Shown here: one piece after another, positions 25,109 through 42,105 of the stretch
Numbering within the stretch: position 1 is the stretch's first letter
How the letters are laid out: the number at the start of each line of letters is the position of its first letter
DNA from: Pseudomonadota bacterium
Lineage (GTDB): Bacteria > Pseudomonadota > Alphaproteobacteria > Acetobacterales > Acetobacteraceae
NCBI GenBank assembly: GCA_021798575.1
Contig: JAJZGI010000011.1
Span: 1-47,137, forward strand
Direction of reading: 5' to 3'
DNA length: 47,137 nt
The notes under the pieces: generated by a model
Seen by the model: only the letters and a program-made list of their open reading frames with translations
Databases searched by the model: none
Told to the model about the DNA's origin: nothing
Program-made: the position numbers and the translations under genes

Positions 25109-25180
25109 GTGAAAGCCTCTGCTGCTGCCGTTCTGGAGTTCACGACGCCATCTGCCCCACGCATGAAGGTGCCCGCGTGA
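25109..25180 (+). CDS. Possible 23-residue leader peptide ahead of the ACP gene
   Basis: A GTG at 25109 follows GGAAGGA at 25096-25102 with good spacing and opens a frame of 24 codons that ends at 25178-25180. Its TGA overlaps the GTG start of the ACP gene (GTGA), the same coupling used throughout the operon. The product would be Ala/Pro-rich with no recognisable domain. The ACP start itself lacks a good ribosome-binding site, which makes re-initiation from this small ORF plausible. It could instead be the 3' remnant of a lost gene or pure chance. Confidence 0.35.
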   Translation: MKASAAAVLEFTTPSAPRMKVPA

Positions 25181-25455
25181 CCACCGACGCCACGACCCAG
25201 ACCCAGCCTGAGGCCGAGCTGGCGCAGCTCATCGTCGAGACGCTGAACCTCGACCAGTCCCCGGCGGGGATCAACCCGGAGGCGCCACTCTACGGCGAGG
25301 GGCTGGGTCTGGATTCGATCGACATGCTGGAGATCGCGCTCGCGGTATCGCAGCGCTTTGCCGTCAACCTGCGGGCGGACCAGGAGGACAACGCCGAAAT
25401 CTTCAAATCCCTGCGCGCCTTGAACGCATATATCCAGGCGCATCGCGAGCCATAA
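25177..25455 (+). CDS. Acyl carrier protein of the aryl-polyene operon
   Basis: A 92-residue ACP. The phosphopantetheine attachment serine is Ser47 in GLGLDSIDMLEIA. It should carry the aryl starter and the growing polyene. APE systems I know of usually encode two ACPs; only one is visible here. The start is a GTG at 25177, overlapping a possible leader peptide. It is the first recognisable gene of a run of twelve contiguous or overlapping plus-strand genes reaching 35744. Confidence 0.92.
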   Translation: MTTDATTQTQPEAELAQLIVETLNLDQSPAGINPEAPLYGEGLGLDSIDMLEIALAVSQRFAVNLRADQEDNAEIFKSLRALNAYIQAHREP

Positions 25456-26016
25456 ATGCGGCCCGCCCGTTCCCCGCTCTGGGCACTCCTGCCGATCATC
25501 ATCGTGCCAGTCTTCTTTCACGTCATGATCCTGGCGCTGCGCCATGTCCGCCTCAGCCTGCATCCCGGCATTCCGGGCATGTTCAAGCTCGGCTTCGTCA
25601 CCATCTCGGCGCTCACCCATTGGAGCATCTACACCAGCCTGCTCGCCTGCTTCGCCCTCACGCTGCGGCCAGGCCATGAGCCGCTCATCACCACCATGGC
25701 GCGCCGGATGAACGGCGAACCCTCGGGCGAGCTGGCTCGCTACACCCGCCGGGTCACCATCGCCTGGTCCCTGTTCTTCGCAACACAGCTCTGCCTGTCG
25801 GTTCTGCTGTTCTGCTTCGCGCCGCTCACGGTCTGGTCGTTTTTCGTCAATATACTGGACATCCCGCTGGTCGCCATGATGTTCGCCGCGGAATATGCGG
25901 TGCGGCTGCGCTGCCTGAATGACCCTCCCCGGCACTCGTTCGCCATGATCTTTGAGATGATGACGGAGGCCGCCTCAGCCCGGCATAAGCGGGTCATGAC
26001 AGAACCGGAGCGCTGA
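25456..26016 (+). CDS. COG4648-like inner-membrane protein of the aryl-polyene operon
   Basis: A 186-residue membrane protein with four to five hydrophobic segments (about 8-27, 44-70, 95-117, 122-142). It resembles the small COG4648-type membrane proteins found beside the ACP and ligase genes in aryl-polyene clusters. Function is unknown; location suggests a membrane scaffold for the biosynthetic complex. It starts immediately after the ACP stop and ends 4 bases before the ligase start. Confidence 0.7.
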   Translation: MRPARSPLWALLPIIIVPVFFHVMILALRHVRLSLHPGIPGMFKLGFVTISALTHWSIYTSLLACFALTLRPGHEPLITTMARRMNGEPSGELARYTRRVTIAWSLFFATQLCLSVLLFCFAPLTVWSFFVNILDIPLVAMMFAAEYAVRLRCLNDPPRHSFAMIFEMMTEAASARHKRVMTEPER

Positions 26017-26020
26017 TGCC

Positions 26021-27313
26021 ATGACCAACCGCCGCGTGGCCACGCAGATGGGCCAGCCGGTTCAGGCGCCGGAGTTCTGGCGCGACGCTATGGCCCTGGC
26101 CGCCCGGCTGCCCGGCCACGCCCATGTCGTCAACCTCTGCACCCATCGCTACCGCTTCATGGTCGGGCTGGCCGCTGCACTCGTCCGCCGCCAGCTCACC
26201 CTGCTGCCGATGGCCAATGTCCCGGGTGACCTCGCCGCCCTGGCGCAGGACTACCCAAACCTCTACGCGCTGACGGACGGCGCGGAGCCAGGCCTGCCGT
26301 CCATGGCCTATCCGGATGATCTCAAAGGTCCGCTCCCATCCTCAAACCCCCTGCCGTCGGATGACCAGCCAGCGGTCGTCCTGTTCACCTCGGGCTCCAC
26401 CGGGCGGCCGAAACCGGCGCAAAAATCCTGGTCCACGCTCCGCCACAGTGTGCAGGCGGCGGGCGTGCGGCTCGGCATCGCCGAGTTCAGCAGCGCCACG
26501 ATCATCGGCACGGTGCCGCACCACCATAGCTACGGGCTGGAATCGGTCATCCTGCTCGGGCTGTTGCACGGTATCACCATCGATACCGGCTGGCCGCTCT
26601 ACCCGGCGGACATCCGCTCCGCCCTGGCCCGGGCAATGGGCCCGCGCATTCTGGTCACCACCCCCCTGCATCTGCGCGCCCTCCTGGCGGAACCGCAGGA
26701 CATGCCCAGGGCCGACCTCATCCTCTCGGCGACCGCCCCCCTGTCGCCCGAGCTCGCGGCGCAGGCGGAGGTCAGCTTCGGCGCGCGGCTGATCGAGATC
26801 TACGGCTGTACCGAGGCCGGGCAGATCGCCACCCGGCGCACGGCGCGCGAGCGCCAATGGCACTGCCTGGACGGCGTTGCTTTGCACCTGGACGAAGCCG
26901 GCACATGGGCCAGCGGCCCGGCGGTCGCGGGCCCAAAAACATTGCTGCACGACTCCATCGAGCTCACCGGCCCCGCGACATTCCACCTCGGCGAGCGGAC
27001 GGTCGACATGATCGATATCGCGGGCAAGCGGAACTCGCTCGCCTACCTCAACCACCAGCTCCTTGGCATCCCAGGCGTCGAGGACGGTGTATTCGTCATG
27101 GGGCAGGCGGGCCGCAATGTGGCGCGGCTGGCCGCGCTGGCGGTCGCACCTGGGCTCAGCTCGGCGCAAATCATGGCGGCGCTGCGGGAGCGGATCGACG
27201 CGGCGTTCCTGCCCCGCCCCCTGGTCTTGGTAAATCAACTGCCACGGAACATATTGGGTAAATTATCGCGGGAAGAATTGCTGCGGCTTATACCAACCGC
27301 GGAGATCCGGTGA
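26021..27313 (+). CDS. Acyl/aryl-ACP ligase (ANL adenylation enzyme, ApeH/XanA2-like)
   Basis: A 430-residue adenylate-forming enzyme, shorter than typical acyl-CoA synthetases. The phosphate-binding loop LFTSGSTGRPKPAQKS is at 121-136, the adenine-binding EIYGCTEAGQ lies in the middle, and the catalytic C-terminal lysine is Lys414 in NILGKLSRE. By analogy with XanA2/ApeH it should activate 3- or 4-hydroxybenzoate as an acyl-AMP and load it onto the ACP encoded upstream. The chorismatase at 41125 is the probable source of that acid. Substrate specificity is inferred from context. Confidence 0.85.
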   Translation: MTNRRVATQMGQPVQAPEFWRDAMALAARLPGHAHVVNLCTHRYRFMVGLAAALVRRQLTLLPMANVPGDLAALAQDYPNLYALTDGAEPGLPSMAYPDDLKGPLPSSNPLPSDDQPAVVLFTSGSTGRPKPAQKSWSTLRHSVQAAGVRLGIAEFSSATIIGTVPHHHSYGLESVILLGLLHGITIDTGWPLYPADIRSALARAMGPRILVTTPLHLRALLAEPQDMPRADLILSATAPLSPELAAQAEVSFGARLIEIYGCTEAGQIATRRTARERQWHCLDGVALHLDEAGTWASGPAVAGPKTLLHDSIELTGPATFHLGERTVDMIDIAGKRNSLAYLNHQLLGIPGVEDGVFVMGQAGRNVARLAALAVAPGLSSAQIMAALRERIDAAFLPRPLVLVNQLPRNILGKLSREELLRLIPTAEIR

Positions 27314-27603
27314 TGTGGCACACACGGGAGGTTTTTATCCCCACAAATCACGCCTGCGCCGCCGGGCACTTCCCGGATAACCCCGTCGTGCCGGGCGCGC
27401 TGCTGCTGGATTCGGTATTGGCTTCCATCACCGGGGTGCAGGGTGAGGTCACCCTCCGTACCGTAAAATTCCTCCACATCGTCCGCTATGGCACGGTGCT
27501 ACAGCTGCGCTGGCAGAACACCGGCGGGCAGTGCAGTTTTGAATGCCACGCGCCGGGCGATGGTCTGGTAATGTCGGGCAGGCTCCAAGCGGTGAGCCCA
27601 TGA
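27313..27603 (+). CDS. Hotdog-fold 3-hydroxyacyl-ACP dehydratase (ApeI-like)
   Basis: A 96-residue single hotdog domain. HACAAGHFPDNPVVPGALLLDSV holds the FabZ-like catalytic His in GHFPDNPVVPG. It should remove water from the 3-hydroxyacyl-ACP intermediate to create each conjugated double bond. Aryl-polyene systems use two such dehydratases; the second is at 34591. The ATG at 27313 overlaps the ligase stop (TGATG); a GTG directly before it is an alternative. It overlaps the acyltransferase by 4 bp. Confidence 0.82.
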   Translation: MWHTREVFIPTNHACAAGHFPDNPVVPGALLLDSVLASITGVQGEVTLRTVKFLHIVRYGTVLQLRWQNTGGQCSFECHAPGDGLVMSGRLQAVSP

Positions 27604-28496
27604 CCGCCTCCCGCGCGCAGGAGTGGGTCACGCGCGCCGAGCGCGGCTCCCTGCCGCTCATCCGGCTGGGCGTGTGGACAACGCGCATCCTGGGGCGGCG
27701 CGTGGCGCGGCTGCTGCTCTACCCGCTCTGCCTCTATTTCCTGGCCTCGTCACCCTCGGCGCTACGCCATTCGGGGGCCTATCTGCGCCGCGTCCTGGGT
27801 CGCAGGCCGCGCCTCAAGGATTATTTCCGGCATTTTTTAACCTTCGCCCGCTGCCTGCTGGACCGGGTGTTTCTGCTCGGCGAGCAGACGGATGCTTTCG
27901 AGATCACCGTGCACGGCGAGGAGATTCTGCACGATATCGAGCAGCAGGGCGGCGGCTGCCTCCTGTTCGGCGCGCATTTCGGCAGTTTCGAGGTGGCGCG
28001 GGCGGTCGGCCGCCGCCGTGGGGACCTGCCGATCAGCTTGCTGATGTACGAGGAGAATGCGCAAAAAATCCGCGCCGCGCTGGCGGCGATCAATCCGCGC
28101 CTCGCCGCCGAGGTCATCGGCCTGGGGCGGCTGGATTCGCTCATCCTGGTGGCGGAGCGCCTGCAACGCGGGCATTTCATCGGCGTGCTGGCGGATCGCA
28201 ATGTCGCGGGCACCGATCTGGTCCGCTACGATTTCCTGGGCAAACCGGCGGCGTTCCCGCAGGGGCCATTCCGCATGGCCATGCTGCTGCGCCGCCCGCT
28301 GGTGATGATGGTGGGGGTCTATCGTGGCGGTCGCCGCTACGAGGTACATTTCGAGCTTCTGGCGGAGCCCATGGCGCGTCCGCAGGATGGCCAGGCCTGG
28401 ATCGACGACGCGATGCGGGCCTACGCCGCGCGGCTGGAGCACTATTGCCGCGCGGCGCCTTACAACTGGTTTAATTTCTATGATTTCTGGGCCTGA
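27600..28496 (+). CDS. LpxL/HtrB-like acyltransferase of the aryl-polyene operon
   Basis: A 298-residue lysophospholipid/lipid A acyltransferase family protein. The HxxxxE motif is His126-Glu131 in GAHFGSFE, and DRNVAGTD plus FPQGPFRMAML follow as in the family. A hydrophobic N-terminal stretch (about 36-52) would hold it at the cytoplasmic face of the inner membrane. In aryl-polyene clusters such enzymes are thought to attach the polyene or an accompanying acyl chain to a lipid or sugar carrier. It overlaps the LolA-like gene by 17 bp. Confidence 0.85.
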   Translation: MTASRAQEWVTRAERGSLPLIRLGVWTTRILGRRVARLLLYPLCLYFLASSPSALRHSGAYLRRVLGRRPRLKDYFRHFLTFARCLLDRVFLLGEQTDAFEITVHGEEILHDIEQQGGGCLLFGAHFGSFEVARAVGRRRGDLPISLLMYEENAQKIRAALAAINPRLAAEVIGLGRLDSLILVAERLQRGHFIGVLADRNVAGTDLVRYDFLGKPAAFPQGPFRMAMLLRRPLVMMVGVYRGGRRYEVHFELLAEPMARPQDGQAWIDDAMRAYAARLEHYCRAAPYNWFNFYDFWA

Positions 28497-29073
28497 GATT
28501 CGCCGTCTCGCGCTGCTGATGTTGCTGCTCGCCGCGCCTTTGGGCCCGGCGCGGAGTGCCCAGCCTGCCTGGGGCCTGCCGCAGCTGATGCGTTCGTTGG
28601 CTTCGGTGCGCACCGCCTCCGCCCATTTCACCGAGTGCGAGACCGCGCCAGTGCTGAGCGCCCCACTCATGAGCATAGGCACACTCACCTACCGAGCGCC
28701 GGACTATCTGAGCAAGGTCACCACCGCGCCCAACGCACAGCGTTTCGTGCTCGAGCATAACCGCGTCACCCTCACCGCCAACGGCCAGGTGCACGTCTTT
28801 GCGCTCAGCCAGGACCCGCGCATCGCCGGGCTGGTCGAGGGCATTCAGGGCACGCTGGCGGGCGATCTCCCTTCATTGCAACAATTCTACACCGTCAGCC
28901 TCACGGGCAATGCGGCGGCCTGGCAACTGCGCCTGCTGCCGAAGGATAGGTCGCTGCGGCGCATCGTGCGGGGGCTCATCATCCGCGGCAGCGGGAGCCA
29001 GATCACCACGATCGACACCGTCAGCAACGACGGCGGTGATTCGCTCATGCGTATTGAGCCCGATGCGCCGTAG
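28480..29073 (+). CDS. LolA-like outer-membrane lipoprotein carrier homologue
   Basis: A 197-residue secreted protein with a signal peptide (about 8-27, LALLMLLLAAPLGPARSA). The mature part (LPQLMRSLASVRTASAHFTECE, GTLTYRAPDYLSKVT) resembles the LolA fold that shelters hydrophobic acyl chains in the periplasm. In aryl-polyene clusters this homologue is believed to carry the finished product to the outer membrane. The ATG at 28480 lies inside the acyltransferase end; it overlaps the MMPL gene by 11 bp. Confidence 0.8.
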   Translation: MISGPEIRRLALLMLLLAAPLGPARSAQPAWGLPQLMRSLASVRTASAHFTECETAPVLSAPLMSIGTLTYRAPDYLSKVTTAPNAQRFVLEHNRVTLTANGQVHVFALSQDPRIAGLVEGIQGTLAGDLPSLQQFYTVSLTGNAAAWQLRLLPKDRSLRRIVRGLIIRGSGSQITTIDTVSNDGGDSLMRIEPDAP

Positions 29074-31390
29074 GGGCTGGGTCCCGCTGGTCTGGCTGGT
29101 GTCGCTCGTCGCCTGCGCCATCATCGCGGCGCGCACGCGCTACCCGACCAACATGGGTGATTTCCTGCCGCACTCGGCCTCCATGGCGCAGCAGGTACTG
29201 GCCGGGCAGGTGAACGGCGCCGCCGCCTCGCATATCGTCATGCTGGACATCAAAGGCGCGCCCGCGCCGGTCCTGGCGCGGCTCAGCCAGGCTCTGGCCG
29301 CGCAACTACGCCCGCAGCCGGACTTCATCAATGTCATGAACGGCGATGCAAAATCATTCGCCGGCGTGCAAAACTATGTATGGCGCAACCGCTACCTCTT
29401 AAGCCCCGGCGTGACCGCGCAACGATTCTCAACCGCCGGGCTGCACGCCGCGCTGCAAAACGACCTCTCCCTGCTCAGCTCGGAGCTCGGGACGGTGATG
29501 GGGGAAAGCCTGCGGGCGGACCCGACGGGCGAGACTCTGGGTCTGCTGAGCCAATTCGGCAACGGCGGCGGCCCGGCGATGCAAAACGGCGCATGGATGA
29601 CCGCCAACGGAAACGCAGCGTTACTGCTGGTGGACACGGCGGCCCCCGGGTTCGACCTGGATGCGCAACAACGCGCGCTGGCGCGGATCAAATCCCGTTT
29701 CAGCCATGCCCGCGCCGCCATCCCGGCGGCAGCCGGGGCCTATCTGCAAATGAGCGGGCCGGGCGTGTTCGCCGTGCATATCCGCAATACCACCAAAAGC
29801 GACGTCACCCGCCTCTCGATCCTGGCCCTGTCCGGCGCCGCCACGCTGCTGATCTTCGCCTATCGCTCGCCGCTCGTGCTGCTGCTCGGCCTGCTGCCCA
29901 TCGCCGCGGGCGCGCTCGCGGCCATCGCCGCCGTCTCGCTGGCGTTCGGCTTCGTGCACGGCATCACGCTCGGCTTCGGCGTGACCCTGATCGGCGAATC
30001 GCTCGACTACGCGATCTATCTTTTCACCCAGACCGCCCGTGGCGAGCCGGCGGACGCGGCGCTGGCCCGCATCTGGCCCACATTGCGCCTGGGCGCGCTC
30101 ACCTCCATCGTCGGCTTCAGCGCCATGCTGGCGTCCAGCTTCACCGGCTTCGCCCAGCTCGGCCTGTTCTCTATCGCCGGGCTGGCCGCCGCCCTGGGGA
30201 CAACGCGCTTCGTCCTGCCGCTCCTGGTGCCCCAAAGCTTCTTCGCCGCCGGGGCGGAGCCGCTGGGCCGGCCGGTACAGGCGCTCATCGCGCATCGGCG
30301 CGCCGGGCGCGGCGTGGTGGCACTGGGCGTGGCCGCCGCGTTCATCGCGCTGCTGGCGCACCAAAGCGGCATGTGGGATCAAAACCTGCTGAACCTGAGC
30401 CCGATCCCGCAGGCCGCGCAACAACTCAACCAGAATTTGCAGCGCGAGCTCGGCGTCCCGAACCTGCGCTTCTTCGCGGTGTTCAAGGCCAGCAGTGCGC
30501 AGCGCGCCTTGCAACAAAGCGAGGCGCTGGCGCCGGTGCTGGTCAGGCTGGTGGCGGCGCAGGAGCTCGGCGGCTTCAACCTGCCGAGCAACATTCTGCC
30601 CAGCGATGCCACCCAGCGCCAGCGCCAGGCGGACCTGCCCGACATTGCGACGCTTAAAAAGCGCTTCAGCCAGGCGGCCCGGGGCCTGCCATTCAAAATC
30701 TCCGCATTTACGCCATTTTTCAGCGCCGTGGCGGCTGCCCGAACTGCCCCGCTGCTCACGCCCTCCAGCCTGCCACCCGCACTCCGGCTCCAGTTCGGCT
30801 CCATGCTGGTGCGCCATGGCGCTGCCTGGGTGGTCGTGGCGCCGCTGCACGATGTCACCCACCCGGCGGCCGTCACGCGCGCCCTCACCGCCGGCGGAGC
30901 GCATTTCGTCGACCTCAACCAGGCGTCAACCCGCCTGCTGCACACCTTCCAGAACCAGGCGGTGACGCTCGCGGTCGTCGGCAGCGTCGCCATCTTCCTG
31001 CTCCTGCTGGTCGGGCTGCGCTCGCTACGTCGCGCGGTCGCCGTGGCCGCCCCGCTGGCCGCCGCGGTCGCCATGACCTCCGCCCTGCTCACCCTTCGCG
31101 GCGGCAAACTCTCCATCTTCATGGTCGCCGGGTTTCTCCTCATCATCGCCATCGGCTCCAACTACTGCCTGTTCTTCGAGCGGAGCACCCCGGGCTCGCC
31201 CGGCTGGCCGCGCGCGGTGGCCTCCATCGTGCTGGCCAATCTCTGCACCGTCGCGGCCTACGGGCTGCTGTCCTTCTCGCGCATCCCGGTGCTGCACGAC
31301 ATCGGCGAAACGGTGGCCATCGGCACCTTCCTCAGCCTGGTCTGCGGCGCGGTGCTGAGCACGCCCTCCAACGCCGCCCCAACGCCATGA
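29063..31390 (+). CDS. MMPL/RND-family exporter of the aryl-polyene operon
   Basis: A 775-residue RND-superfamily transporter of the MMPL type. An N-terminal TM (about 7-26) and a periplasmic domain precede a bundle of TMs (about 255-390), then a second periplasmic domain (about 430-630) and a second bundle (about 635-770). The motif GVTLIGESLDYAIYLF in the first bundle is the counterpart of the GxxxDY motif of MMPL proton relays. It should extract the lipid-linked polyene from the inner membrane and pass it to the LolA-like carrier. It overlaps neighbours on both sides (11 bp and 4 bp). Confidence 0.88.
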   Translation: MRRRGWVPLVWLVSLVACAIIAARTRYPTNMGDFLPHSASMAQQVLAGQVNGAAASHIVMLDIKGAPAPVLARLSQALAAQLRPQPDFINVMNGDAKSFAGVQNYVWRNRYLLSPGVTAQRFSTAGLHAALQNDLSLLSSELGTVMGESLRADPTGETLGLLSQFGNGGGPAMQNGAWMTANGNAALLLVDTAAPGFDLDAQQRALARIKSRFSHARAAIPAAAGAYLQMSGPGVFAVHIRNTTKSDVTRLSILALSGAATLLIFAYRSPLVLLLGLLPIAAGALAAIAAVSLAFGFVHGITLGFGVTLIGESLDYAIYLFTQTARGEPADAALARIWPTLRLGALTSIVGFSAMLASSFTGFAQLGLFSIAGLAAALGTTRFVLPLLVPQSFFAAGAEPLGRPVQALIAHRRAGRGVVALGVAAAFIALLAHQSGMWDQNLLNLSPIPQAAQQLNQNLQRELGVPNLRFFAVFKASSAQRALQQSEALAPVLVRLVAAQELGGFNLPSNILPSDATQRQRQADLPDIATLKKRFSQAARGLPFKISAFTPFFSAVAAARTAPLLTPSSLPPALRLQFGSMLVRHGAAWVVVAPLHDVTHPAAVTRALTAGGAHFVDLNQASTRLLHTFQNQAVTLAVVGSVAIFLLLLVGLRSLRRAVAVAAPLAAAVAMTSALLTLRGGKLSIFMVAGFLLIIAIGSNYCLFFERSTPGSPGWPRAVASIVLANLCTVAAYGLLSFSRIPVLHDIGETVAIGTFLSLVCGAVLSTPSNAAPTP

Positions 31391-32595
31391 ACCGTCCATT
31401 CCCCTGGGGCATCGACCCCATCACGCATCTCGCCGATCCCACCCATCGCTACGCGGATTTCTATCCCTATCACGCGGAACTATGCGCTCTGTCCGAGCTG
31501 CGTAAAAAGCCCGGCTTTGGCGTACCGCTGCGCAGCGGCATCGGCGGCCACTCCTTGCTCTATCTCAACGGCGTGCGGCTGGACCGTACAGCGCACTACC
31601 CGGTACTTCGCCTCTGCACACCAGATGAACCGCCAGCGGACCACGGTGTCGGCATCAGCGTGAACTCGCACTACGGCAACGCCAACTGGGTCGGCGTCGA
31701 GGGGCGGGATTTCCAGCGGCGCGGCGCGCTCGCCCCGGGTCAGCGCCTGACGCACGAGGCCTACGCGCACACGCAGGCAACCGCCAAGGCGGCGGGCTTT
31801 CTGGACGGCGTGGAATTCCACAAATCACTCTTCCAGGACAAGCCAGCAGGCATGAGCGCGCGCGACTATATGTACGAGATCTCGGTCGCGACGGACTACG
31901 GCGCGCAGTTCGGCCGCAACATCTACTCGGCCCGCGTGCCGCTCAACCGCGCCCGGATGACCGCCATCATCGACTATCTCAACGCGCTGAACGCGCCCTA
32001 CCGGGAGGGAAACCGCCTCTATCGCTGGCGCGTGCTCAACAACAACTGCGCCCATGTCGCGCACAACGCGCTGGCCGCGGCGGGCGTCTGGTCGCCATGG
32101 CCGACCGGCCAGTTCTTTGCCTTCGCCGCCTTCAAATTCCCCGTACCCAAGAACGAGCTGGTCGACCTCATGCTGCGCGCCAACGACCTGCCGATCGAGG
32201 ACCCTGACACCTTGTACGATGACCTCGCCGCAAGAACCTCGCTTCTCGCATCGGGTACGCTGCCCACGGCGCCCGGCGCGCTGGCTGGCGCTGCCCCCGC
32301 GATCGCCGATAACGACGTCTACGACGTCGCGCGCCTCAGGTTGATCTTCTTCGACAACCCTTTCTGGGGCCCCTACAGCCCACGCTTCCGGCGCATCTTC
32401 GCCACGCCCCGCTATCACAACCTCGAGGCAAATCTACGCCACTTCGCGGCCCGATACGCGGCCGCACAGGCGCGCAGCGCTACTTCGCGGCATTCAGGCG
32501 AGCGCGCGCTGTTCCAGAGCCGCTATCATGACTATATCGCCCGCATGGCAGAGCAACTCCGCGCGCAACTCGCACAATTCGGAGAAACGCCATGA
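31387..32595 (+). CDS. Papain-like (permuted NlpC/P60 or LRAT-like) protein in the pigment operon
   Basis: A 402-residue protein I do not recognise by name. Two features suggest a circularly permuted papain fold: GIGGHSLLYLNG with His55, and later NNNCAHVAHNALAAAG with Cys221. In LRAT- and DUF4105-type enzymes the His likewise precedes the Cys, and the Cys lies in an NC-x-H-type helix motif. Such enzymes are acyltransferases, thioesterases, peptidases or phospholipases. No signal peptide is obvious. Position between the exporter and the ketosynthase, with ATGA overlaps on both sides, ties it to the pathway. It might replace the missing thioesterase or attach the polyene to its carrier; both are inference. 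Confidence 0.6.
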   Translation: MNRPFPWGIDPITHLADPTHRYADFYPYHAELCALSELRKKPGFGVPLRSGIGGHSLLYLNGVRLDRTAHYPVLRLCTPDEPPADHGVGISVNSHYGNANWVGVEGRDFQRRGALAPGQRLTHEAYAHTQATAKAAGFLDGVEFHKSLFQDKPAGMSARDYMYEISVATDYGAQFGRNIYSARVPLNRARMTAIIDYLNALNAPYREGNRLYRWRVLNNNCAHVAHNALAAAGVWSPWPTGQFFAFAAFKFPVPKNELVDLMLRANDLPIEDPDTLYDDLAARTSLLASGTLPTAPGALAGAAPAIADNDVYDVARLRLIFFDNPFWGPYSPRFRRIFATPRYHNLEANLRHFAARYAAAQARSATSRHSGERALFQSRYHDYIARMAEQLRAQLAQFGETP

Positions 32596-33782: not shown

Positions 33783-34594
33783 CCCACTTATACATTGAGG
33801 GCATCGGCCTGCGCGGCCTGGGGCTCAACGGCTGGGCGCAAAGCGCGCCGGTGCTGGCTGGCCTGGCGGACTACGCGGCGGCGCCGGTGGAGGTGCCGCT
33901 CTGCCCCCTGCTGCCCGCCAATGAGCGTCGGCGCGCGCCCAAAACGGTCAACCTCGCCCTGGCCGTCGCGGCGGAGGCGTTCAGCGCCTCCGGCCGCAGC
34001 CCGCTGACAACGCCGGTAGTGTTCAGCTCCTCCGGCGGGGAGGGCGAGACGATCCACGGCATATTGAGCACGCTGGCCTCACCCCAGCGTGAACTCTCGC
34101 CGACCAGGTTCCACAACTCGGTCCATAACGCCGCGGCGGGCTATTGGAGCATCGGCACCGGCGCGACCTCAGCCTCCACCAGCCTGTGCGCCTATGATGA
34201 CAGTTTCGCCGCCGCACTCATCGAGGCCGCCGCGCAGGTCGCCGCCAACCAGCCCGTCGCGATGATCGTCTACGATGTCCCCTATCCCGCGCCGCTGTGC
34301 CTGGTCCGCCCCATCGGTGCCGCGTTTGGCATGGCGCTGGTGCTCTCGCCCCAACCCTCGGCTGCCTCCCTGGCGCGGCTCGATCTCACGCTGCGGCCCG
34401 GCGCCTGCGCGGCGCCCACCGCAGCCCCGCTCACGCTGGATTATTTGCGCCAGTCCACGCCGGCGGCGCGCAGCCTGCCGCTGCTGGCCGCCCTGGCCGC
34501 CAATATGGCCTCGGTCGTCTCGTTGGATTATCTGACCGATATGACGCTCACGCTCCAAATCACCCCACGTCCCGCTCCCGGCTGGCAGGCATGA
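33779..34594 (+). CDS. KS-like chain-length-factor partner (ApeC-like)
   Basis: A 271-residue protein of the short ketoacyl-synthase N-terminal type (Ketoacyl-synt_2). FHNSVHNAAAGYWSIGTGATSAST at about 111-134 aligns with the KS active-site region but carries Ala/Ser in place of the nucleophilic Cys, and the C-terminal His motifs are absent. It should be catalytically silent and form a heterodimer with the KS at 32592, limiting polyene length. It overlaps neighbours by 4 bp each. Confidence 0.82.
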   Translation: MTHLYIEGIGLRGLGLNGWAQSAPVLAGLADYAAAPVEVPLCPLLPANERRRAPKTVNLALAVAAEAFSASGRSPLTTPVVFSSSGGEGETIHGILSTLASPQRELSPTRFHNSVHNAAAGYWSIGTGATSASTSLCAYDDSFAAALIEAAAQVAANQPVAMIVYDVPYPAPLCLVRPIGAAFGMALVLSPQPSAASLARLDLTLRPGACAAPTAAPLTLDYLRQSTPAARSLPLLAALAANMASVVSLDYLTDMTLTLQITPRPAPGWQA

Positions 34595-35028
34595 AAACAC
34601 TGGCTCGTGAGCAGATCATGGCGATGATCCCGCATGATGGCGCCATGTGCCTGCTGGATGAGGTGCTGGAGTGGGACGCGAGCGCGCTGCACGGCCTGTC
34701 CCACCGGTTTTGTAACGCGGACAACCCGATGCGTCGGCCCGATGGCGTGCTGGGTGCTGCCTGTCTGGTCGAACTCGCGGCGCAGGCCATGGCCGTCCAC
34801 GCAAGTCTGGTCGCCGGGCCCAATCACGCCCCCACGCCCGGCTATCTGGTCGCCCTGCGGGAGGTGCGGCTGGCCAGGGCGACTCTGGATGCGGCGATGG
34901 CGCCGCTTGGCATCAACGCCACGCGCCTGATGATGAGCGGGCAGGGCGCGTCCTACTCCTTCGTGGTCAGCAGCCATCATGCGGAAATCGTGCGTGGCCG
35001 CGCGGTTTTGCTTTTGGGGAACACGTGA
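34591..35028 (+). CDS. Second hotdog dehydratase (ApeP-like)
   Basis: A 145-residue hotdog protein. MIPHDGAMCLLDEVLEWD at about 12-29 and LVELAAQAMAVHASL match the ApeP/FabZ-like pattern, with His15 the likely catalytic base. In the characterised aryl-polyene system two dehydratases work together; this one is the longer partner of that at 27313. Coupled by ATGA upstream and GTGA downstream. Confidence 0.8.
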   Translation: MKTLAREQIMAMIPHDGAMCLLDEVLEWDASALHGLSHRFCNADNPMRRPDGVLGAACLVELAAQAMAVHASLVAGPNHAPTPGYLVALREVRLARATLDAAMAPLGINATRLMMSGQGASYSFVVSSHHAEIVRGRAVLLLGNT

Positions 35029-35744
35029 GTAGGGCTCTCATCACGGGCGGTAGCGGAGTCATCGGTGCCGCCATCGCGCATCTGCTCGCCCAGGCTGGCC
35101 ATCATATCTATGTCCACGCCCACGCAAACCTGCCGCAGGCGGAGCGCGTCGCGGCGGAAATCATAGCCAAGGGTGGCGCCGCCCAGGCCGTGTGTTTCGA
35201 TATCACCGATCACGCGCAAACCGCCCAGGCGCTGGCGCAGATCCTCAAAGCCGGGCCGATCCAGATCCTGGTCAACAACGCCGGCATCCACGACGACGCG
35301 GTGCTGCCGGGCATGCGCCAGGAGCAATGGGCGCGCGTCATCGACGTCTCGCTCAACGGGTTCTTCAACGTCACGCAGCCGCTGCTGCTGCCGATGCTCC
35401 GCACGCGTTTCGGGCGCATCATCAACATCTCCTCGGTGGCGGCGCTCATGGGCAATCGCGGCCAGGCCAACTACGCGGCGGCCAAGGCCGGGCTGCACGG
35501 GGCCACGCGCGCGCTGGCGCTGGAGCTCGCCAGCCGGGGCATCACGGTGAACACGGTGGCACCGGGGATCATCGCCTCGCCCACCGCCGAAAAATCCTTC
35601 CCGCCGGAGGTCATCAAAAAGCTGGTGCCGATGCAGCGGGCGGGCCAGCCCGAGGAGGTGGCCGAGCTGGTGGCTTTTCTCGCCTCCGAGCGCGCTTCTT
35701 ATATCTCAGGTCAGCTGATCTCGATCAACGGCGCGATGGCCTGA
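35025..35744 (+). CDS. 3-ketoacyl-ACP reductase (FabG/ApeQ-like)
   Basis: A 239-residue short-chain dehydrogenase. The nucleotide-binding TGGSGVIG is at 7-14, NNAG at 84-87, and the Ser137-Tyr150-Lys154 triad lies in ISSVAALMGNRG and NYAAAK. It reduces 3-ketoacyl-ACP to the 3-hydroxy form with NADPH in each cycle. The GTG start overlaps the dehydratase stop. It closes the contiguous operon; two direct repeats follow. Confidence 0.92.
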   Translation: MSRALITGGSGVIGAAIAHLLAQAGHHIYVHAHANLPQAERVAAEIIAKGGAAQAVCFDITDHAQTAQALAQILKAGPIQILVNNAGIHDDAVLPGMRQEQWARVIDVSLNGFFNVTQPLLLPMLRTRFGRIINISSVAALMGNRGQANYAAAKAGLHGATRALALELASRGITVNTVAPGIIASPTAEKSFPPEVIKKLVPMQRAGQPEEVAELVAFLASERASYISGQLISINGAMA

Positions 35745-35752
35745 TCAAACCC

Positions 35753-35943: not shown

Positions 35944-35950
35944 TAACGTC

Positions 35951-36541: not shown

Positions 36542-36563
36542 ACCCACCCATGCCTTTCCGCGC

Positions 36564-36593
36564 CTATATTATTACGATATCGTAACAATATAG
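36564..36593. promoter_or_regulatory. 30-bp near-perfect palindrome between convergent genes
   Basis: The segment from CTATATT to AATATAG is its own reverse complement except for one symmetrical mispair. Its core TTACGATATCGTAA is a perfect 14-bp palindrome. It sits 22 bp after the hypothetical gene and 1 bp beyond the stop of the convergent GT2 gene, so a bidirectional terminator is one reading. The AT-rich stem with a central GATATC also looks like a TetR-type operator. Confidence 0.6.
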
Positions 36594-36594
36594 C

Positions 36595-37299
36595 CTACCG
36601 GCACAAAGCCCCGCAGATAAGCCGCAGATGCATCGCAGCCAACAACAAATTATCCCGCCCGTAGCGGAAGTGCGAGACCCCACCCTCGGCAACGCTAAAA
36701 TATCGCACGGCGGCCGGAACATTCACCACGGGCACGCCCTCCCAGCACAGCCGCACGACCGCCTCGGTATCGAAATCATAGCGCCGCATGTGCCGGCTCG
36801 CCTCCATCACCATGAGCAGGCGCCGCAGCGGATACACACGGAACCCGAAAAGCGCGTCGCCGATGCCCCGGCGCGCCTCCAGCCGTGCCAGTACATTGGA
36901 GATCCGCCGCCCCAGCACGCGCACGCGCGGCGCGCTGGCGTCGAATATCGGCACACCCAGGATCATGCTGCTCGGGTTCCGCATCGAGATTTCGATAAAC
37001 CGGCCTATCTCAGCGGCCGGGTGCTGGCCGTCGGCATCCATCACCAGCGCATGGGTAAAACCCTCAAGCACTGCGGCGCGCACACCCTCCAGCACCGCAG
37101 CGCCCTTGCCGCCATTTCTCGCGCGGCGGATCACCCGCAGCCCATCCTGCGATTCTACCCCGCTATCATCATCGCCACCGTCGATCACGAGCCACACATG
37201 CGGCCAGCGGCAAAGCGCATCCGCAACCGTCCCCGCCAGCCTGGCGCCGGGTTCATAGCTGGGGATCAGAACAAGGTAGGTGTCAGGCCCGGCTGCCAC
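36595..37299 (-). CDS. GT2 glycosyltransferase of the pigment locus (ApeJ-like)
   Basis: A 234-residue family 2 glycosyltransferase with VLIPSYEPG at 10-18, a GDDDSG loop and the metal-binding MDADGQHP at 87-94. The C-terminal VSHFRYGRDNLLLAAMHLRL resembles the glycosyltransferases encoded in aryl-polyene clusters. It lacks C-terminal membrane helices. It may glycosylate the polyene or its carrier lipid. The start is a GTG at 37299, overlapping the halogenase end by 17 bp, so the two are co-transcribed away from the methyltransferase. Confidence 0.82.
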   Translation of the reverse strand: MAAGPDTYLVLIPSYEPGARLAGTVADALCRWPHVWLVIDGGDDDSGVESQDGLRVIRRARNGGKGAAVLEGVRAAVLEGFTHALVMDADGQHPAAEIGRFIEISMRNPSSMILGVPIFDASAPRVRVLGRRISNVLARLEARRGIGDALFGFRVYPLRRLLMVMEASRHMRRYDFDTEAVVRLCWEGVPVVNVPAAVRYFSVAEGGVSHFRYGRDNLLLAAMHLRLICGALCR

Positions 37300-38587
37300 G
37301 CGCCCCGCCGGAGAAACGGAACCGCAGATGCGAAAATTTTGTTACGTAATAGATGCACCGGAACAGATACAGCCGCAGGGTTATCCGCCAGTCCGCCGCA
37401 ATGCCACCCGCAAGCAGCGAGAGCACGGCCTCCTCCATCCGGAACATGTTTCGTGGCGACATGAACAAATTGCGCATCGCGGGCTCGCGGATACGGTAGA
37501 TGAACCAGGTGAACGCGCCCAGAGCCCCGCGCGTCTGCGTATCGTAGCGGCGGAGAATGCGAGGCGCACGGTTCGGCCGGTTCAGGCAGGCGTCCACGGC
37601 GTCAGCCGCCCAGAAACCCGTCTGCATCGCGATATACACGCCGGTGGAAAAAACCGGGTCGATAAAGGTGCAGGCATCCCCAGCCATGATAAAGTTCCGC
37701 CCGCTCAAAATTTTCGAGGCATAGGAGTAGTTGCCGGTGGCGGAAACATTGCCCACCAGCGTCGCGTCCCGCAGCCGGTCGGCGATCTCGGGGCTGGAGG
37801 CGATGAGTCCCATAAAAAAACTGTTGAGGTCGGTCCCACGATTTTTGAAAAACGCCGCGGGGCAGACCGCGCCGATGCTGGTCGCCCCATCGGAGAGCGG
37901 AATGAACCAGAACCAGCCATTGTCAAACCAGACGATGGAGATATTTCCCGCCGCCTGGCCGGGCAGGCGCCGTGCGTTGGTGAAGTGGCCGAATATCGCG
38001 GCGCTGTCGTTGCGCGCATCGCGCGCCTTGGCACCCATCTGCGTGGCCAGCAACGTGTCGCGGCCCGACGCATCCACGATGAATCCGGCGCGCCATTCGC
38101 GCGTCGTTCCGTCCTGGTTCACGGCGCTAACGCGGGGGCAATCATCGTCGGCAAACGCAACCCCGGTGACACGACACTCCTCGATCACCTCCGCCCCTTT
38201 CGTGGCGGCATTCCGGAGCAGAATATGATCAAAGCTGGAGCGCCGGACCTGGAAGGCGTAGGGGAAACGCTTGTCCCAGGCATTGGCAAATTCATAGCGG
38301 ACGCTCTTGCCGTGGAACGGCGAGACAAATTCGATCCCATGCTTGTGCTGGGCGCTGGTCTCGACCCGCGCCCGCACGCCGAGACGGTCCAGCAGCGGCA
38401 AATTATAGGGAAGCAGCGATTCACCGATATGGAAGCGCGGGTGCTTTTCCTTCTCAAGCAGCACGACCCGCCGACCGCGCTCGGCCAGCAGCGCCGCGAC
38501 GCTGGAGCCCGCCGGCCCGCCGCCGATCACCAGTACGTCGCAATCCGGCGGCGCGGGGCTGACTGCAAGCTGCGCAACTGATGCCAC
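37283..38587 (-). CDS. Flavin-dependent halogenase
   Basis: A 434-residue FAD enzyme. The dinucleotide motif GGGPAGSS is at 22-29 and GESLLP at 55-60. Two halogenase hallmarks are present: Lys82 in KHGIEF at the position of the catalytic lysine, and GWFWFIP at 224-230, matching GWxWxIP. The C-terminal FAD motif GDACTFIDPVFSTGV at 303-317 matches phenol/pyrrole-type halogenases. Such enzymes make hypohalous acid from FADH2, O2 and halide and halogenate aromatic rings. Xanthomonadins are brominated, so this may brominate or chlorinate the polyene head group. I chose the GTG at 38587 because of AAGGGAG upstream; a longer frame to 38686 would overlap the divergent methyltransferase. Confidence 0.82.
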   Translation of the reverse strand: MASVAQLAVSPAPPDCDVLVIGGGPAGSSVAALLAERGRRVVLLEKEKHPRFHIGESLLPYNLPLLDRLGVRARVETSAQHKHGIEFVSPFHGKSVRYEFANAWDKRFPYAFQVRRSSFDHILLRNAATKGAEVIEECRVTGVAFADDDCPRVSAVNQDGTTREWRAGFIVDASGRDTLLATQMGAKARDARNDSAAIFGHFTNARRLPGQAAGNISIVWFDNGWFWFIPLSDGATSIGAVCPAAFFKNRGTDLNSFFMGLIASSPEIADRLRDATLVGNVSATGNYSYASKILSGRNFIMAGDACTFIDPVFSTGVYIAMQTGFWAADAVDACLNRPNRAPRILRRYDTQTRGALGAFTWFIYRIREPAMRNLFMSPRNMFRMEEAVLSLLAGGIAADWRITLRLYLFRCIYYVTKFSHLRFRFSGGARGSRA

Positions 38588-38678: not shown

Positions 38679-39452
38679 ATGTCCAACGCGGAAGATGATA
38701 ATGACGCCCTGCGCTCCCACGCGCTTGTGGATGAATACTACAGCAACCCGGCGCAGCGCCGGTCTTCCATGCGCGCGCTATTCAACCGGTCAGCCCAACA
38801 TTACGACAAGGTTAACAAAATTTTCTCGCTGGGCTCCGGCGCGTGGTACCGCCGCTTTTCCCTGCGTCGTGCGGGCGTGCGGCCGGGTGCGCTCGTGGTC
38901 GATATCGCCGTCGGCACCGGCCTGTTGGCGCGCGAGGCACTGGCGCTCAACGGTGATCCCGCCCTGGTCATCGGCGTCGATCTCAGCGAGGCGATGCTGC
39001 AAATCGCCCAGCGCAATCTCGCCATTCCACTCATCCAGGCCGCGGCGGAGGCGCTGCCGCTGGCGCCCGATATCGCGGATTTCGTGACGATGGGTTTCGC
39101 GCTGCGCCATGTCGCGGATCTGAAGGCGATGTTCCATGAGGCCATGCGCGTGCTCCGCCCGGGTGGGGCCATCATCCTGCTGGAGATCAGCGCGCCGCGT
39201 AACCTTCTCTGTCGCGCGCTGGCAGCCGCCGTCATCGGTTTCATGGTGCCGTTGGTTTCGCTGCTGATGACGCGCGATGCCCGTGCCCGCACCTTGATGC
39301 AGTATCATTGGCGGACGATCCTGCACTGCATACCTCCCGATGTGGTGCTGCGCGTCCTGGCCGAATGCGGCTTTGCCAACGCAGCCTGCTCGAGCGAATT
39401 CGATCTGTTCCGTTGCTACAAAGCCATCAAGCCGACGAGCACGGCGGGATGA
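38679..39452 (+). CDS. UbiE-like class I SAM-dependent methyltransferase
   Basis: A 257-residue methyltransferase. Motif I is VVDIAVGTGLLAREAL (73-88), GVDLSEAMLQIA follows, and GFALRHVADL matches the UbiE/MenG signature region. VLRPGGAIILLEIS is the usual post-motif. UbiE relatives methylate quinones, but the neighbours here suggest O- or C-methylation of the aryl polyene head; xanthomonadin I has a methoxyphenyl group. The first ATG of the frame lies within the halogenase promoter region; the ATG at 38679 is more plausible. It overlaps the antiporter by 4 bp. Confidence 0.82.
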   Translation: MSNAEDDNDALRSHALVDEYYSNPAQRRSSMRALFNRSAQHYDKVNKIFSLGSGAWYRRFSLRRAGVRPGALVVDIAVGTGLLAREALALNGDPALVIGVDLSEAMLQIAQRNLAIPLIQAAAEALPLAPDIADFVTMGFALRHVADLKAMFHEAMRVLRPGGAIILLEISAPRNLLCRALAAAVIGFMVPLVSLLMTRDARARTLMQYHWRTILHCIPPDVVLRVLAECGFANAACSSEFDLFRCYKAIKPTSTAG

Positions 39453-40732
39453 AGATCATGGTTGCGCAACAGAGCGAAGCGCTGCTCATCTCGGTGCTGT
39501 TGCAGCTGGTCATCATGGTCGGCGCGGCACGCGCACTCAACCTGTTGTTCCGCCGCTGGGGCCAACCGGGGGTAATCGGGGAGATCGTGGCGGGCCTGCT
39601 GCTGGGCCCCTCGCTGTTCGGGCATTTTTTTCCTGGCGTCTCCGCCGAGGTTTTCGGGCTGCAACCGGCCCCTTCGATCATGATCCTGTCGCAGATCGGC
39701 CTCATCCTGCTGATGTTCCAGATCGGCATGGGTTTTGAATTCAGCCGGCTCCGTGAGCCCAGGGCACGCCGCGCGCTCCTGCCGGTGGCGGCTGTCTCGG
39801 TGGTCGTGCCGTTGGGCTTAGGTGTCTGGCTCGGGTATCTCTCCGCGCCATATTTCGCGGGAGAAATTCCCGTGCGGATCTACGCGCTTTTCTGTGGCGT
39901 GGCGATGGCGATCACGGCGGTGCCGGTGCTGGGCCGCATCCTCGCGGGCTACGGCATGCTGCGCCAGGAGCTGGGCGTTCTCGCGATCTCCGCCGCGGCG
40001 ATCAACGATATCGCCGGCTGGCTCCTGCTGGCCGTGGTGGGTGCGCTCGCGGCCGCAAAATTTTCGGTCGGGCGAGAGGTACTGCATCTGGCTTTGGTAT
40101 TCGGCTTCGTCCTGCTCTGCATCTTCATGCTCCGTCCCGCGACAAACTTTCTGTTGAAGACATTTCCCGTGCGCGAAGGTGAAGTCCCGCCCACGCTGAT
40201 GTCCATCATACTCATCGCGGTGTTCATGCTCGGCATGGTCACGTTCAAGCTCGGGCTGTTCGGGATCTTTGGTGGCTTTGTCGGCGGGTTATTGGTACAT
40301 GAGCATCAGGAGTTCTGCACGGCATGGCGCCGCCAGGTCGGCGGCTTTGTGCTGGTTTTCTTCCTGCCCATATTTTTCACCTATACCGGCCTGCATACCA
40401 ACCTGCTGGGCCTGACGACCCGCACGGATTTTCTATGGCTGCTGACATTCCTCATGGTATCGATCGCGGGAAAAATCGTTCCGGTGACACTGGCAGCAAA
40501 ATGGGCGGGCTACCAAACCCACGCCGCATTGCTGCTCGGCGTCCTCATGAACACAAGGGCGCTGATGGAGTTGATCGTGCTCAATATCGGCCTCCAAACG
40601 GGTTTTCTGCCGCCAAAAATGTTCACCATTCTCGTCACCATGGCCGTGGTGACAACGGTGATGGTCGGCCCGGCGCTGAAATTTCTCACACCGAAACTGG
40701 GGCTCACGACGTCGATCGATATCGAGGCTTAA
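39449..40732 (+). CDS. Kef/CPA2-type cation:proton antiporter
   Basis: A 427-residue membrane protein with about 12 TMs of the Na+/H+ exchanger (CPA2, Kef-like) family: RRWGQPGVIGEIVAGLLLGPS near the N-terminus and AAAINDIAGWLLLAVVGAL with a conserved Asp in the middle. It has no C-terminal TrkA-N regulatory domain. It exchanges K+ or Na+ for protons and may aid pH homeostasis in an acidophile. Co-transcription with the methyltransferase is indicated by ATGA coupling. Any link to the pigment is unknown. Confidence 0.88.
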   Translation: MKIMVAQQSEALLISVLLQLVIMVGAARALNLLFRRWGQPGVIGEIVAGLLLGPSLFGHFFPGVSAEVFGLQPAPSIMILSQIGLILLMFQIGMGFEFSRLREPRARRALLPVAAVSVVVPLGLGVWLGYLSAPYFAGEIPVRIYALFCGVAMAITAVPVLGRILAGYGMLRQELGVLAISAAAINDIAGWLLLAVVGALAAAKFSVGREVLHLALVFGFVLLCIFMLRPATNFLLKTFPVREGEVPPTLMSIILIAVFMLGMVTFKLGLFGIFGGFVGGLLVHEHQEFCTAWRRQVGGFVLVFFLPIFFTYTGLHTNLLGLTTRTDFLWLLTFLMVSIAGKIVPVTLAAKWAGYQTHAALLLGVLMNTRALMELIVLNIGLQTGFLPPKMFTILVTMAVVTTVMVGPALKFLTPKLGLTTSIDIEA

Positions 40733-41021: not shown

Positions 41022-41050
41022 AGAATAGCCTACGCCGGCACAACCGTAAA
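41022..41050 (-). promoter_or_regulatory. Candidate promoter of the small secreted protein
   Basis: On the minus strand TTTACG (41045-41050), a 17-bp spacer and TATTCT (41022-41027) match four of six bases each in the -35 and -10 consensus. Transcription would begin near 41015, 17 bases before the ATG at 40998. Confidence 0.45.
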
Positions 41051-41110
41051 TGTGGAGAAATCTCGCTTGATTAATCGGCTGAACACCTGTTTTCGGGGCC
41101 TTGGGCAACC

Positions 41111-41116
41111 TATAAT
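41111..41116 (+). promoter_or_regulatory. Perfect TATAAT -10 element directly upstream of the chorismatase
   Basis: TATAAT at 41111-41116 ends 8 bases before the ATG at 41125, so transcription would begin within a base or two of the start codon. The -35 region (near TGTTTT, 41088-41093) is poor. No ribosome-binding site is visible, so a leaderless mRNA is likely. Confidence 0.6.
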
Positions 41117-41124
41117 GTTACACG

Positions 41125-42105
41125 ATGGCATTTTCTGCTTTAACCCTCCGTTACGCTGACCAATCTTCGGTCGGCGTGCATTTGGCGCGCGCCGACCATC
41201 TGCTGGGTATCGTCGGGTTCGGTGCGCAGCCGCCGAAGAAACTTCTACAATCCTGCCCGTTCGTGCGCGCGCCGTTGATGCCCCTGGCCAAGTGTCCGGC
41301 GTTCGAGATCTGGACCGCCGCATCGCCCACGCGACGTTGCGAGGTCGGCCCGGTCGTGGGCGCCTGTAGCGCCGAGTTGGCGTTTGGTGTCGTCCCGCTA
41401 CCGGAGGATGCCGCGATCGAGGGTATCGTGGAACGCGCATATGGCGATATTTTCCGGTTTCTCGACCAGACCGGTTTCAACCAACCCATCCGGTTCTGGA
41501 ATTATCTGACGCGCATCACGGAAGACGAGCAGGGAATGGAGCGCTACCGGCATTTCAACATCGGCCGGCATCATGCGTTCATGGCGCATCTGCGCCAATC
41601 CGTGCCGCCGGCGGCCAGCTGCCTGGGCGCGCATGATGGCGAGTCCATCATCTATTTTCTGGCCGCACGGGAGGCGGCGACGCCGATTGAAAATCCCCGG
41701 CAGGTCAGCGCCTACGCCTATCCGGAAATCTACGGCCCGCGCAGCCCAAGTTTTTCCCGCGCGGCACTCTACGGCGGGGATGCGCTGTTCATCTCGGGGA
41801 CGGCGAGCATCGTCGGCCATGAAACACGCCATCCGGGCGATCTACCCGGCCAGATTCATGAGACGATCGAAAATCTCAAAATCCTCATGGCGAACGCGCG
41901 GCAAAACCTATCCTCGGTAAGGCCTGAGGATCTGGCATTGAAAATCTATCTGCGGCACGCGGATTATCATGCGCCGGTGGAGGCCGCGCTCAACGCGGCG
42001 TTCGGTATGCGCAACCAGCGTCTGTATCTGCTGGCGGAGATCTGTCGGAGAGAGCTGCTGGTTGAAATCGAGGCCTTCCATCAGGCAGAGCGCGATCATG
42101 GGTAA
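41125..42105 (+). CDS. xanB2: Chorismatase, 3-hydroxybenzoate-type (XanB2/Hyg5-like)
   Basis: A 326-residue protein of the FkbO/Hyg5/XanB2 chorismatase family. Landmarks are RFWNYLTRITEDEQGMERY (123-141), ENPRQVSAYAYPEIYGPRSP (189-208), FISGTASIVGHE (222-233) and ELLVEIEAF (310-318). The family splits chorismate to pyruvate plus a dihydroxycyclohexadiene acid, 3-hydroxybenzoate or 4-hydroxybenzoate. As I recall, 3-HBA-forming members carry Gly and Cys at two active-site positions; Gly225 in SGTAS and Cys307 in EICRRELL could be these. It would supply the aryl starter for the ligase at 26021. It ends flush against the convergent TPR-glycosyltransferase. Confidence 0.9.
   Translation: MAFSALTLRYADQSSVGVHLARADHLLGIVGFGAQPPKKLLQSCPFVRAPLMPLAKCPAFEIWTAASPTRRCEVGPVVGACSAELAFGVVPLPEDAAIEGIVERAYGDIFRFLDQTGFNQPIRFWNYLTRITEDEQGMERYRHFNIGRHHAFMAHLRQSVPPAASCLGAHDGESIIYFLAAREAATPIENPRQVSAYAYPEIYGPRSPSFSRAALYGGDALFISGTASIVGHETRHPGDLPGQIHETIENLKILMANARQNLSSVRPEDLALKIYLRHADYHAPVEAALNAAFGMRNQRLYLLAEICRRELLVEIEAFHQAERDHG

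Follow-up and report, generated by a model that had tools for sequence, protein, structure and literature searches.

We analysed a 47,137-base window (the whole of contig C72) from an Acetobacteraceae genome of 2.37 Mb in 95 contigs (96% complete), which contains a putative xanthomonadin-type aryl-polyene locus. Twelve tandem open reading frames occupy positions 25177-35744 of its plus strand, and they encode an acyl carrier protein (ACP), a ligase, two hotdog dehydratases, a ketosynthase (KS) with a chain-length-factor-like (CLF) partner, a ketoreductase, an acyltransferase, a LolA-like carrier, an MMPL-type exporter and two further proteins (Table 1). This run had been proposed in an earlier reading of the letters alone (henceforth referred to as the original prediction), and it was confirmed by the open frames and by Pfam and NCBIfam matches, with the first dehydratase falling just under the Pfam cut-off and the second recognised by homology; the latter had no Pfam match when scanned inside a longer frame (34297-35028). 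Downstream of the run follow a glycosyltransferase of family 2 (GT2) and a flavin halogenase on the minus strand, and a methyltransferase, a Na+/H+ antiporter and a chorismatase on the plus strand. The GT2, halogenase, methyltransferase and chorismatase lie where the original prediction had placed them, to which we add the minus-strand orientation of the first two and the antiporter, which had gone unmentioned.

Table 1. Genes of the aryl-polyene locus in the window. Several Pfam matches were scored in frames longer than the listed gene, and the starts of these frames are given in the rows.
Gene product	Position	Strand	Evidence
Acyl carrier protein	25177..25455	+	Pfam PP-binding PF00550, 1.6e-7; Ser46 in LDS motif
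Membrane protein (by eye), no named family	25456..26016	+	Recurs in relatives' loci
AMP-forming ligase, taken as aryl-ACP ligase	26021..27313	+	AMP-binding, 3.5e-25
First hotdog dehydratase, FabA-like	27310..27603	+	FabA, 1.4e-4 (22 bits, cut-off 23: just under); position conserved
Lipid A-type acyltransferase	27603..28496	+	PF03279, 6.6e-14 (longer frame from 27543)
LolA-like carrier	28483..29073	+	LolA_3, 6.6e-19 (longer frame from 28324); LolA2_flexi, 5.5e-12 (weak, below cut-off)
MMPL-type exporter	29066..31390	+	MMPL, 7e-11 (longer frame from 28799)
Lnb-N-like protein, role unassigned	31387..32595	+	Lnb_N, 0.0013 (below cut-off)
Ketosynthase (KS), aryl-polyene kind	32592..33782	+	Ketoacyl-synthase C domain, 5.9e-29; NF006618; C161, H291, H325
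CLF-like half ketosynthase	33776..34594	+	Ketoacyl-synt_2, 9.8e-29 (longer frame from 33536)
Second hotdog dehydratase	34591..35028	+	Position; 38% identity to annotated hydroxymyristoyl-ACP dehydratase of Azospirillum ramasamyi
Ketoreductase, short-chain dehydrogenase/reductase (SDR), FabG-like	35025..35744	+	SDR, 6e-52
Glycosyltransferase family 2 (GT2)	36595..37299	-	1.9e-9; shares loci with halogenase in many relatives
Flavin adenine dinucleotide (FAD)-dependent halogenase	37283..38587	-	Trp_halogenase, 3.2e-31; 3e1t_A 'Halogenase', 3e-56; WFWFIP and K82
UbiE-type methyltransferase	38682..39452	+	PF01209, 3.2e-28; 122 bits against NF001244 cut-off of 216
Na+/H+ antiporter	39449..40732	+	PF00999, 3e-47; start overlaps methyltransferase stop
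Chorismatase, Hyg5/XanB2 kind	41125..42105	+	PF21168, 1.2e-31; TIGR04444, 208 bits (cut-off 325); G225, C307, E314

The KS identifies the kind of locus. It passed the NCBIfam model NF006618 (510 bits against a cut-off of 407) and failed fabF (223 of 494), and its closest solved structure was 6qsp_A (235 bits, 9.7e-69; labelled beta-ketoacyl synthase), which we take to be ApeO of a Xenorhabdus aryl-polyene system. The second solved match was 7f28 (216 bits), labelled 3-oxoacyl-ACP synthase FabV, and from the third onward matches did not exceed 168 bits. The three KS residues listed in Table 1 are present, with H325 inside a GHTLG motif. Both features that we took to characterise an aryl-polyene locus, an ApeO-type KS adjoining a truncated CLF-like partner and the presence together of an ACP, AMP ligase, ketoreductase, two dehydratases, acyltransferase, LolA and MMPL, were found here. 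It is very improbable that we are dealing with a fatty-acid locus or an unrelated type II polyketide locus. The KS and the ligase do come from large superfamilies and the second solved match of the KS bears a FabV label, but the score with 6qsp stands well above those from the third match onward, and the CLF-like partner, LolA, MMPL and acyltransferase match published aryl-polyene clusters, as far as the accessible parts of these sources describe them (PMC3691225, PMC3949708). The clustering of the KS with fatty-acid or unrelated polyketide enzymes, which the original prediction had named as a result that would overturn it, was looked for and not found: the NF006618 pass, the fabF failure and 6qsp as nearest structure led us to reject a fatty-acid synthase origin of the KS.

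Co-occurrence was assessed in 120 genomes of the family, the window's own included, at thresholds of E<=1e-60 for the KS, 1e-40 for the halogenase, 1e-25 for the methyltransferase and 1e-30 for a strong chorismatase; the resulting statistics ignore shared ancestry. The KS was detected in 49 genomes, the halogenase in 46, the methyltransferase in 21 and a strong chorismatase in 6, nine of the 15 chorismatase matches at E<=1e-3 having been excluded from the strong ones as partial (<=34 bits). Halogenase genomes held a KS in 44 of 46 cases (Fisher p about 1e-24), and in 30 of these 44 pairs both genes were on one contig, 27 of them within 15 kb. The methyltransferase is likewise conserved with the locus, since 20 of its 21 carriers hold a KS (p about 1e-8), with the two genes on one contig and within 15 kb in 14 genomes and on different contigs in 6; it was not found in locus L003, nor in 29 of the 49 KS genomes at its threshold. 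In 13 of the 48 other KS genomes, hand-chosen and non-random, we inspected the neighbourhood of the KS, and ligase, ACP, dehydratases, LolA and MMPL surround it as far as the stretches extend.

An aligned lysine and a WxWxIP motif are marks of flavin halogenases. In the window's halogenase and its relatives, the W, W, I and P of this motif and the lysine aligned with that of the solved halogenases were invariant in 34 of 34 non-identical homologues, a set drawn from the loci of the best 30 family matches and from the fetched stretches, and so a sample of the copies. The best three solved matches were 3e1t, 8zop and 7fco, named Halogenase, Halogenase and ChlB4, and five of the top six solved relatives are named halogenase, the sixth being ChlB4 or CmlS-type. 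The halogenase gene is thus both intact in its motifs and conserved with the locus.

The chorismatase was aligned with 5ag3, which we take to be Hyg5, and with 4bps (FkbO): the Gly in SGTAS and the Cys in EICRRE match 5ag3, whereas FkbO has Ala at both positions, and the Glu of VEIE is also present. Two Gly and one Cys are the residues of the Hyg5 subfamily, and the Glu is described as essential, in the part of PMC7170507 available. At the remaining Hyg5 Gly position, for which the alignment is tentative, the window has Cys, and G150, G208, G272, G331 and G402 have Ala. Gly225, Cys307 and Glu314 fit formers of 3-hydroxybenzoate (3-HBA), with placement in the XanB2 (CH-III) subfamily staying loose, and the reaction of a chorismatase is not accurately predictable from alignment alone, according to the text available of PMC3949708. 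Two loci with a related chorismatase in named genomes, L002 and L003, come from an Acidocella sp. metagenome-assembled genome (MAG) and a 'Proteobacteria bacterium' MAG (57-58% identity), which suggests that the window's source is an Acidocella-like alphaproteobacterium. At E<=1e-20 a chorismatase was found in 6 of 299 genomes of a phylum sample and 6 of 385 of a class sample, the window's own genome being in both, and we compared the gene surroundings of every other strong chorismatase (15 in all, 5 each from family, phylum and class). Ten adjoin aryl-polyene genes (G086, G118, G150, G208, G272, G331, G429, G454, G549 and G642), and for the remaining five (G032, G081, G100, G402 and G518) no such genes appear in the stretches read. 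Three of the ten are from f83, another alphaproteobacterial family: G429 holds every part seen in the window except the antiporter in a single run; G642 holds all but the methyltransferase and antiporter, its ACP and chorismatase being cut by the stretch ends; and G549 holds the genes from ACP to Lnb-like protein, methyltransferase, halogenase, chorismatase and GT2 on a contig that stops before a KS. In G454 (family f108) the chorismatase, halogenase and GT2 alone share a 10 kb contig. Locus L003 is also linked, with KS, CLF, dehydratase, ketoreductase, GT2, halogenase and chorismatase ordered as in the window and neither methyltransferase nor antiporter. The contig of L002 ends 0.2 kb past the chorismatase, too soon to show linkage. 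In Caballeronia NK8 the KS and chorismatase are on separate plasmids, and in Variovorax VAI-C the KS has no aryl-polyene neighbours in the stretch read.

The locus bears out the original prediction of a xanthomonadin-type aryl-polyene locus: beside the ligase and the elongation set it holds a methyltransferase and a motif-intact halogenase, both conserved with it, and a chorismatase that, by its presence, residues and linkage, is a candidate of the 3-HBA kind. We hold with high confidence that the pathway is xanthomonadin-type and works by the mechanism set out below. Several observations weigh against this reading. Fourteen of the 44 halogenase-KS pairs are on different contigs, and three on the same contig are at least 15 kb apart (15 kb in G106, 852 kb in G062 and 2.7 Mb in G100, read as linear). 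No KS, halogenase or chorismatase was found at the thresholds used in G068, the one genus-mate sampled, so carriage of the locus may vary among members of the genus. The co-occurrence that the original prediction expected holds for halogenase and KS; for the chorismatase it holds as linkage in ten of the 15 neighbourhoods elsewhere and not as a tie to the KS in the family, where 4 of 6 chorismatase genomes have a KS against 45 of the 114 without chorismatase (p=0.19). The 45 of 49 KS genomes in which no strong chorismatase was found would therefore need a starter from elsewhere or a more distant enzyme. The chorismatase is the loosest part of the xanthomonadin-type reading, because a strong match occurs in 6 of 120 family genomes and has no statistical tie to the KS there; its score also lies below the TIGR04444 cut-off (Table 1). 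UbiE-like methyltransferases are a class known for C-methylation. Finally, the halogenase passed no NCBIfam cut-off, its matches being CmlS (199 of 900 bits) and, second, QhpG (166 of 240), a flavin monooxygenase family, so the halogenase-like protein may instead hydroxylate.

The last point bears on a version of the same pathway in which the product is unhalogenated and the halogenase-like protein is a ring hydroxylase or idle. We regard this as quite possible, although not as the favoured outcome. In Azoarcus sp. BH72, arcA is annotated as a halogenase, yet its pigment, arcuflavin, is described as nonbrominated in the part of PMC3949708 available, so halogenation cannot be read off from the gene; together with the QhpG match and the CmlS score far under its cut-off, this speaks for an unhalogenated product, whereas the invariant motif and lysine, the names of the solved relatives and the KS in nearly all halogenase genomes speak for halogenation. 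Halogenation of the product is not supported in the form that the original prediction gave it: the pigment is possibly halogenated, and the presence of a halogenase gene does not settle the matter.

A second alternative concerns the chorismatase, which might serve ubiquinone synthesis through 4-hydroxybenzoate (4-HBA) and sit beside the pigment genes coincidentally or because precursor supply is shared. UbiC was not found in the window's genome at its 96% completeness, five of the other 15 strong chorismatases have no aryl-polyene genes nearby (the genomes of G032 and G081 having no KS at 1e-60), and Xanthomonas XanB2 is reported to serve both pigment and ubiquinone pathways (PMC3949708, in part). 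However, UbiC was detected in 2 of the 120 family genomes, and 112 of the 118 without it also lack a strong chorismatase, so ubiquinone synthesis in the family seems independent of the chorismatase; moreover, ten of the 15 others adjoin aryl-polyene genes, with L003 keeping the same order. We therefore consider this alternative unlikely, and a ubiquinone-only role a weak proposition. As a separate observation, neither UbiC nor a strong chorismatase explains the source of 4-HBA in most sampled family genomes.

For the xanthomonadin-type reading, published clusters provide the closest comparisons, although the accessible parts of the sources limit them. The gene table for arcuflavin (arcA-arcX) of Azoarcus lists a halogenase, chorismatase, glycosyltransferase and Na+/H+ antiporter, as in the window, and shares the KS, CLF-like protein, two dehydratases, reductase, methyltransferase, exporter, LolA, acyltransferases, ligase and ACP; the likeness is one of gene tables rather than sequences, and the parts are split over two loci in Azoarcus but united in one in the window. 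Azoarcus has dialkylresorcinol genes in addition, which were not looked for in the window. In Azoarcus both 3- and 4-HBA were products of the chorismatase, 3-HBA was accepted by the ligase in vitro, and arcuflavin carries a methionine-derived methyl (all PMC3949708). The Lysobacter enzymogenes cluster shares the KS and CLF-like partner, ACP, ketoreductase, two dehydratases, acyltransferase, carrier and exporters, and includes a XanB2 homologue and ORF15, a dolichol-phosphate-mannose synthase-like protein; by the account available a halogenase gene is absent and a methyltransferase went unidentified there, whereas the window has both, and a halogenase is present in two Xanthomonas clusters (PMC3691225). 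The likeness to Xanthomonas and Lysobacter is by published description. In Lysobacter no pigment was made once the KS, the CLF-like partner, the ACP or the ketoreductase had been deleted, and without the chorismatase homologue pigment fell by about 90%, a loss that 3-HBA rescued (PMC3691225). Clusters in Azoarcus, Dechloromonas, Variovorax and Sideroxydans (PMC3949708) and in Acetobacteraceae (PMC8776678) are thus already published, and occurrence outside Xanthomonadaceae, which the original prediction had offered as new, is not. Among Acetobacteraceae, aryl-polyene clusters were reported for 19 of the 43 acidophilic and 28 of the 96 acetous members, with a 'probable halogenase' among the linked genes; this link recurs here, where 44 of 120 genomes have both KS and halogenase, and a chorismatase goes unmentioned in the part of PMC8776678 available.

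The Azospirillum ramasamyi plasmid NZ_CP029832 (47870-77051) has, in the window's order, ACP, hypothetical protein, ligase, dehydratase, acyltransferase, LolA, MMPL, KS, CLF, dehydratase and ketoreductase, followed by a GT2, an FAD oxidoreductase that shares 60% identity with the window's halogenase, and a methyltransferase that shares 50% with the window's methyltransferase. No chorismatase was found on the plasmid, which alone was searched, and no Lnb-like or antiporter match at the locus; deacetylase, methyltransferase, acyltransferase and MipA genes are extra. We found no description of an alphaproteobacterial aryl-polyene locus with a chorismatase in the open-licence literature (subscription journals not covered).

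Trees were built after dropping identical or contained sequences and those with coverage below 80% (KS, halogenase) or 60% (chorismatase), the same exclusions applying to the motif counts. The KS tree (22 rows; 21 hand-chosen loci, including f83, Azospirillum and Variovorax) and the halogenase tree (38 rows) were rooted at midpoints, from which direction cannot be inferred. In the KS tree the window groups with L003 and G053 (100/100), and this trio belongs to a ten-member set (98/97) together with f83, Azospirillum and four additional genomes of the family. A second set consists of nine further KSs from the family, and a third comprises G150, G208 and Variovorax. The family seemingly holds two aryl-polyene KS sets, one shared with Azospirillum and f83 and the other not. 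In the halogenase tree the window, L003 and G053 come together and then fall in a set of 12 (100/99) that also takes in the loci of f83, f108, G150 and G272 and leaves out most copies of the family; the tie of this set to the chorismatase is only partial, since G053, G010, G018 and G105 belong to it but have no chorismatase match. The family's chorismatases split into several separate lineages. Recent transfer from xanthomonad-like genomes was not seen, the KS and halogenase grouping with Acidocella sp. MAG 20 and G053. Simple inheritance of the KS within the family, suggested by a narrower tree, is undercut in the broader one, where the window's KS set is shared with other families; because of this sharing, the KS may have been transferred among alphaproteobacteria.

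The gene content, motifs and conserved linkage were observed directly, and the chemical steps, export and shielding are proposed by analogy with the named relatives. The chorismatase would convert chorismate to 3-HBA, perhaps also to 4-HBA, and the ligase would load 3-HBA onto the ACP. The KS/CLF pair, ketoreductase and two dehydratases would then build a conjugated polyene on it by repeated addition of malonyl units, the methyltransferase would methylate the ring hydroxyl, and the halogenase may brominate or chlorinate the ring or chain. The acyltransferase and GT2 would join the polyene acid to a lipid head, and LolA and MMPL would carry the product to the outer membrane, where it could shield against light and oxidants. 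The pigment gene set is nearly complete and its product probably a yellow, methylated aryl polyene. We raise more tentatively the idea that halogenated, methoxylated xanthomonadin-type polyenes are an old and widely kept alphaproteobacterial trait, which we do not consider the likelier case: halogenase and KS occur together in more than one third of the sampled family and in f83, halogenase and chorismatase in f108, and a KS clade is common to alphaproteobacterial families. If true, alphaproteobacteria would be an unrecognised source of organohalogen pigments. The locus extends a known pathway without altering it conceptually, as the parts list, the Acetobacteraceae clusters and the Azospirillum operon were already known; what it adds is an alphaproteobacterial case in which all xanthomonadin parts, the chorismatase among them, lie in a single locus, and a second alphaproteobacterial family has a copy that is nearly complete. 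Single-locus candidates of this kind would suit a test of whether the family's 'halogenase', found alongside most of its aryl-polyene synthases, does halogenate.

Further genes of the locus were assigned with varying success. The methyltransferase is an additional copy, because a stronger UbiE (272 bits) lies on contig C9 of the same genome; its reading as the housekeeping UbiE was therefore rejected. The antiporter was found in 3 of 120 family genomes at E<=1e-45, the window's own included, and the copies of G086 and G006 are on a contig other than that of the KS; on these counts it was rejected as a regular part of the locus in the family. A copy with 34% identity is in the G150 locus, and membership of the antiporter in the pigment pathway is uncertain. 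The membrane protein next to the ACP had no match in Pfam or NCBIfam, and tblastn found it at 53% in the Azospirillum locus and also in L080, L083, L155, L157, L158 and others; the Lnb-like protein recurs in the loci of L003, G053, G010, G018, G037, G429, G549 and G642. Both keep the same order in aryl-polyene loci of the window's type in several genomes. No hidden gene was recognised in 35745-36594, where two frames without Pfam match were inspected by eye. Past the chorismatase, 42106-44093 encodes a tetratricopeptide-repeat protein and a sulfotransferase-like protein on the minus strand, and minus-strand frames at 44213-46754 resemble, by eye and with no search made, an adenine-specific DNA methylase and phage-type proteins. 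Upstream of the locus, 19151-20800 and 20793-22421 encode two large membrane proteins, side by side and similar in appearance by eye; the second has a weak YfhO match, and a GT2 follows them.

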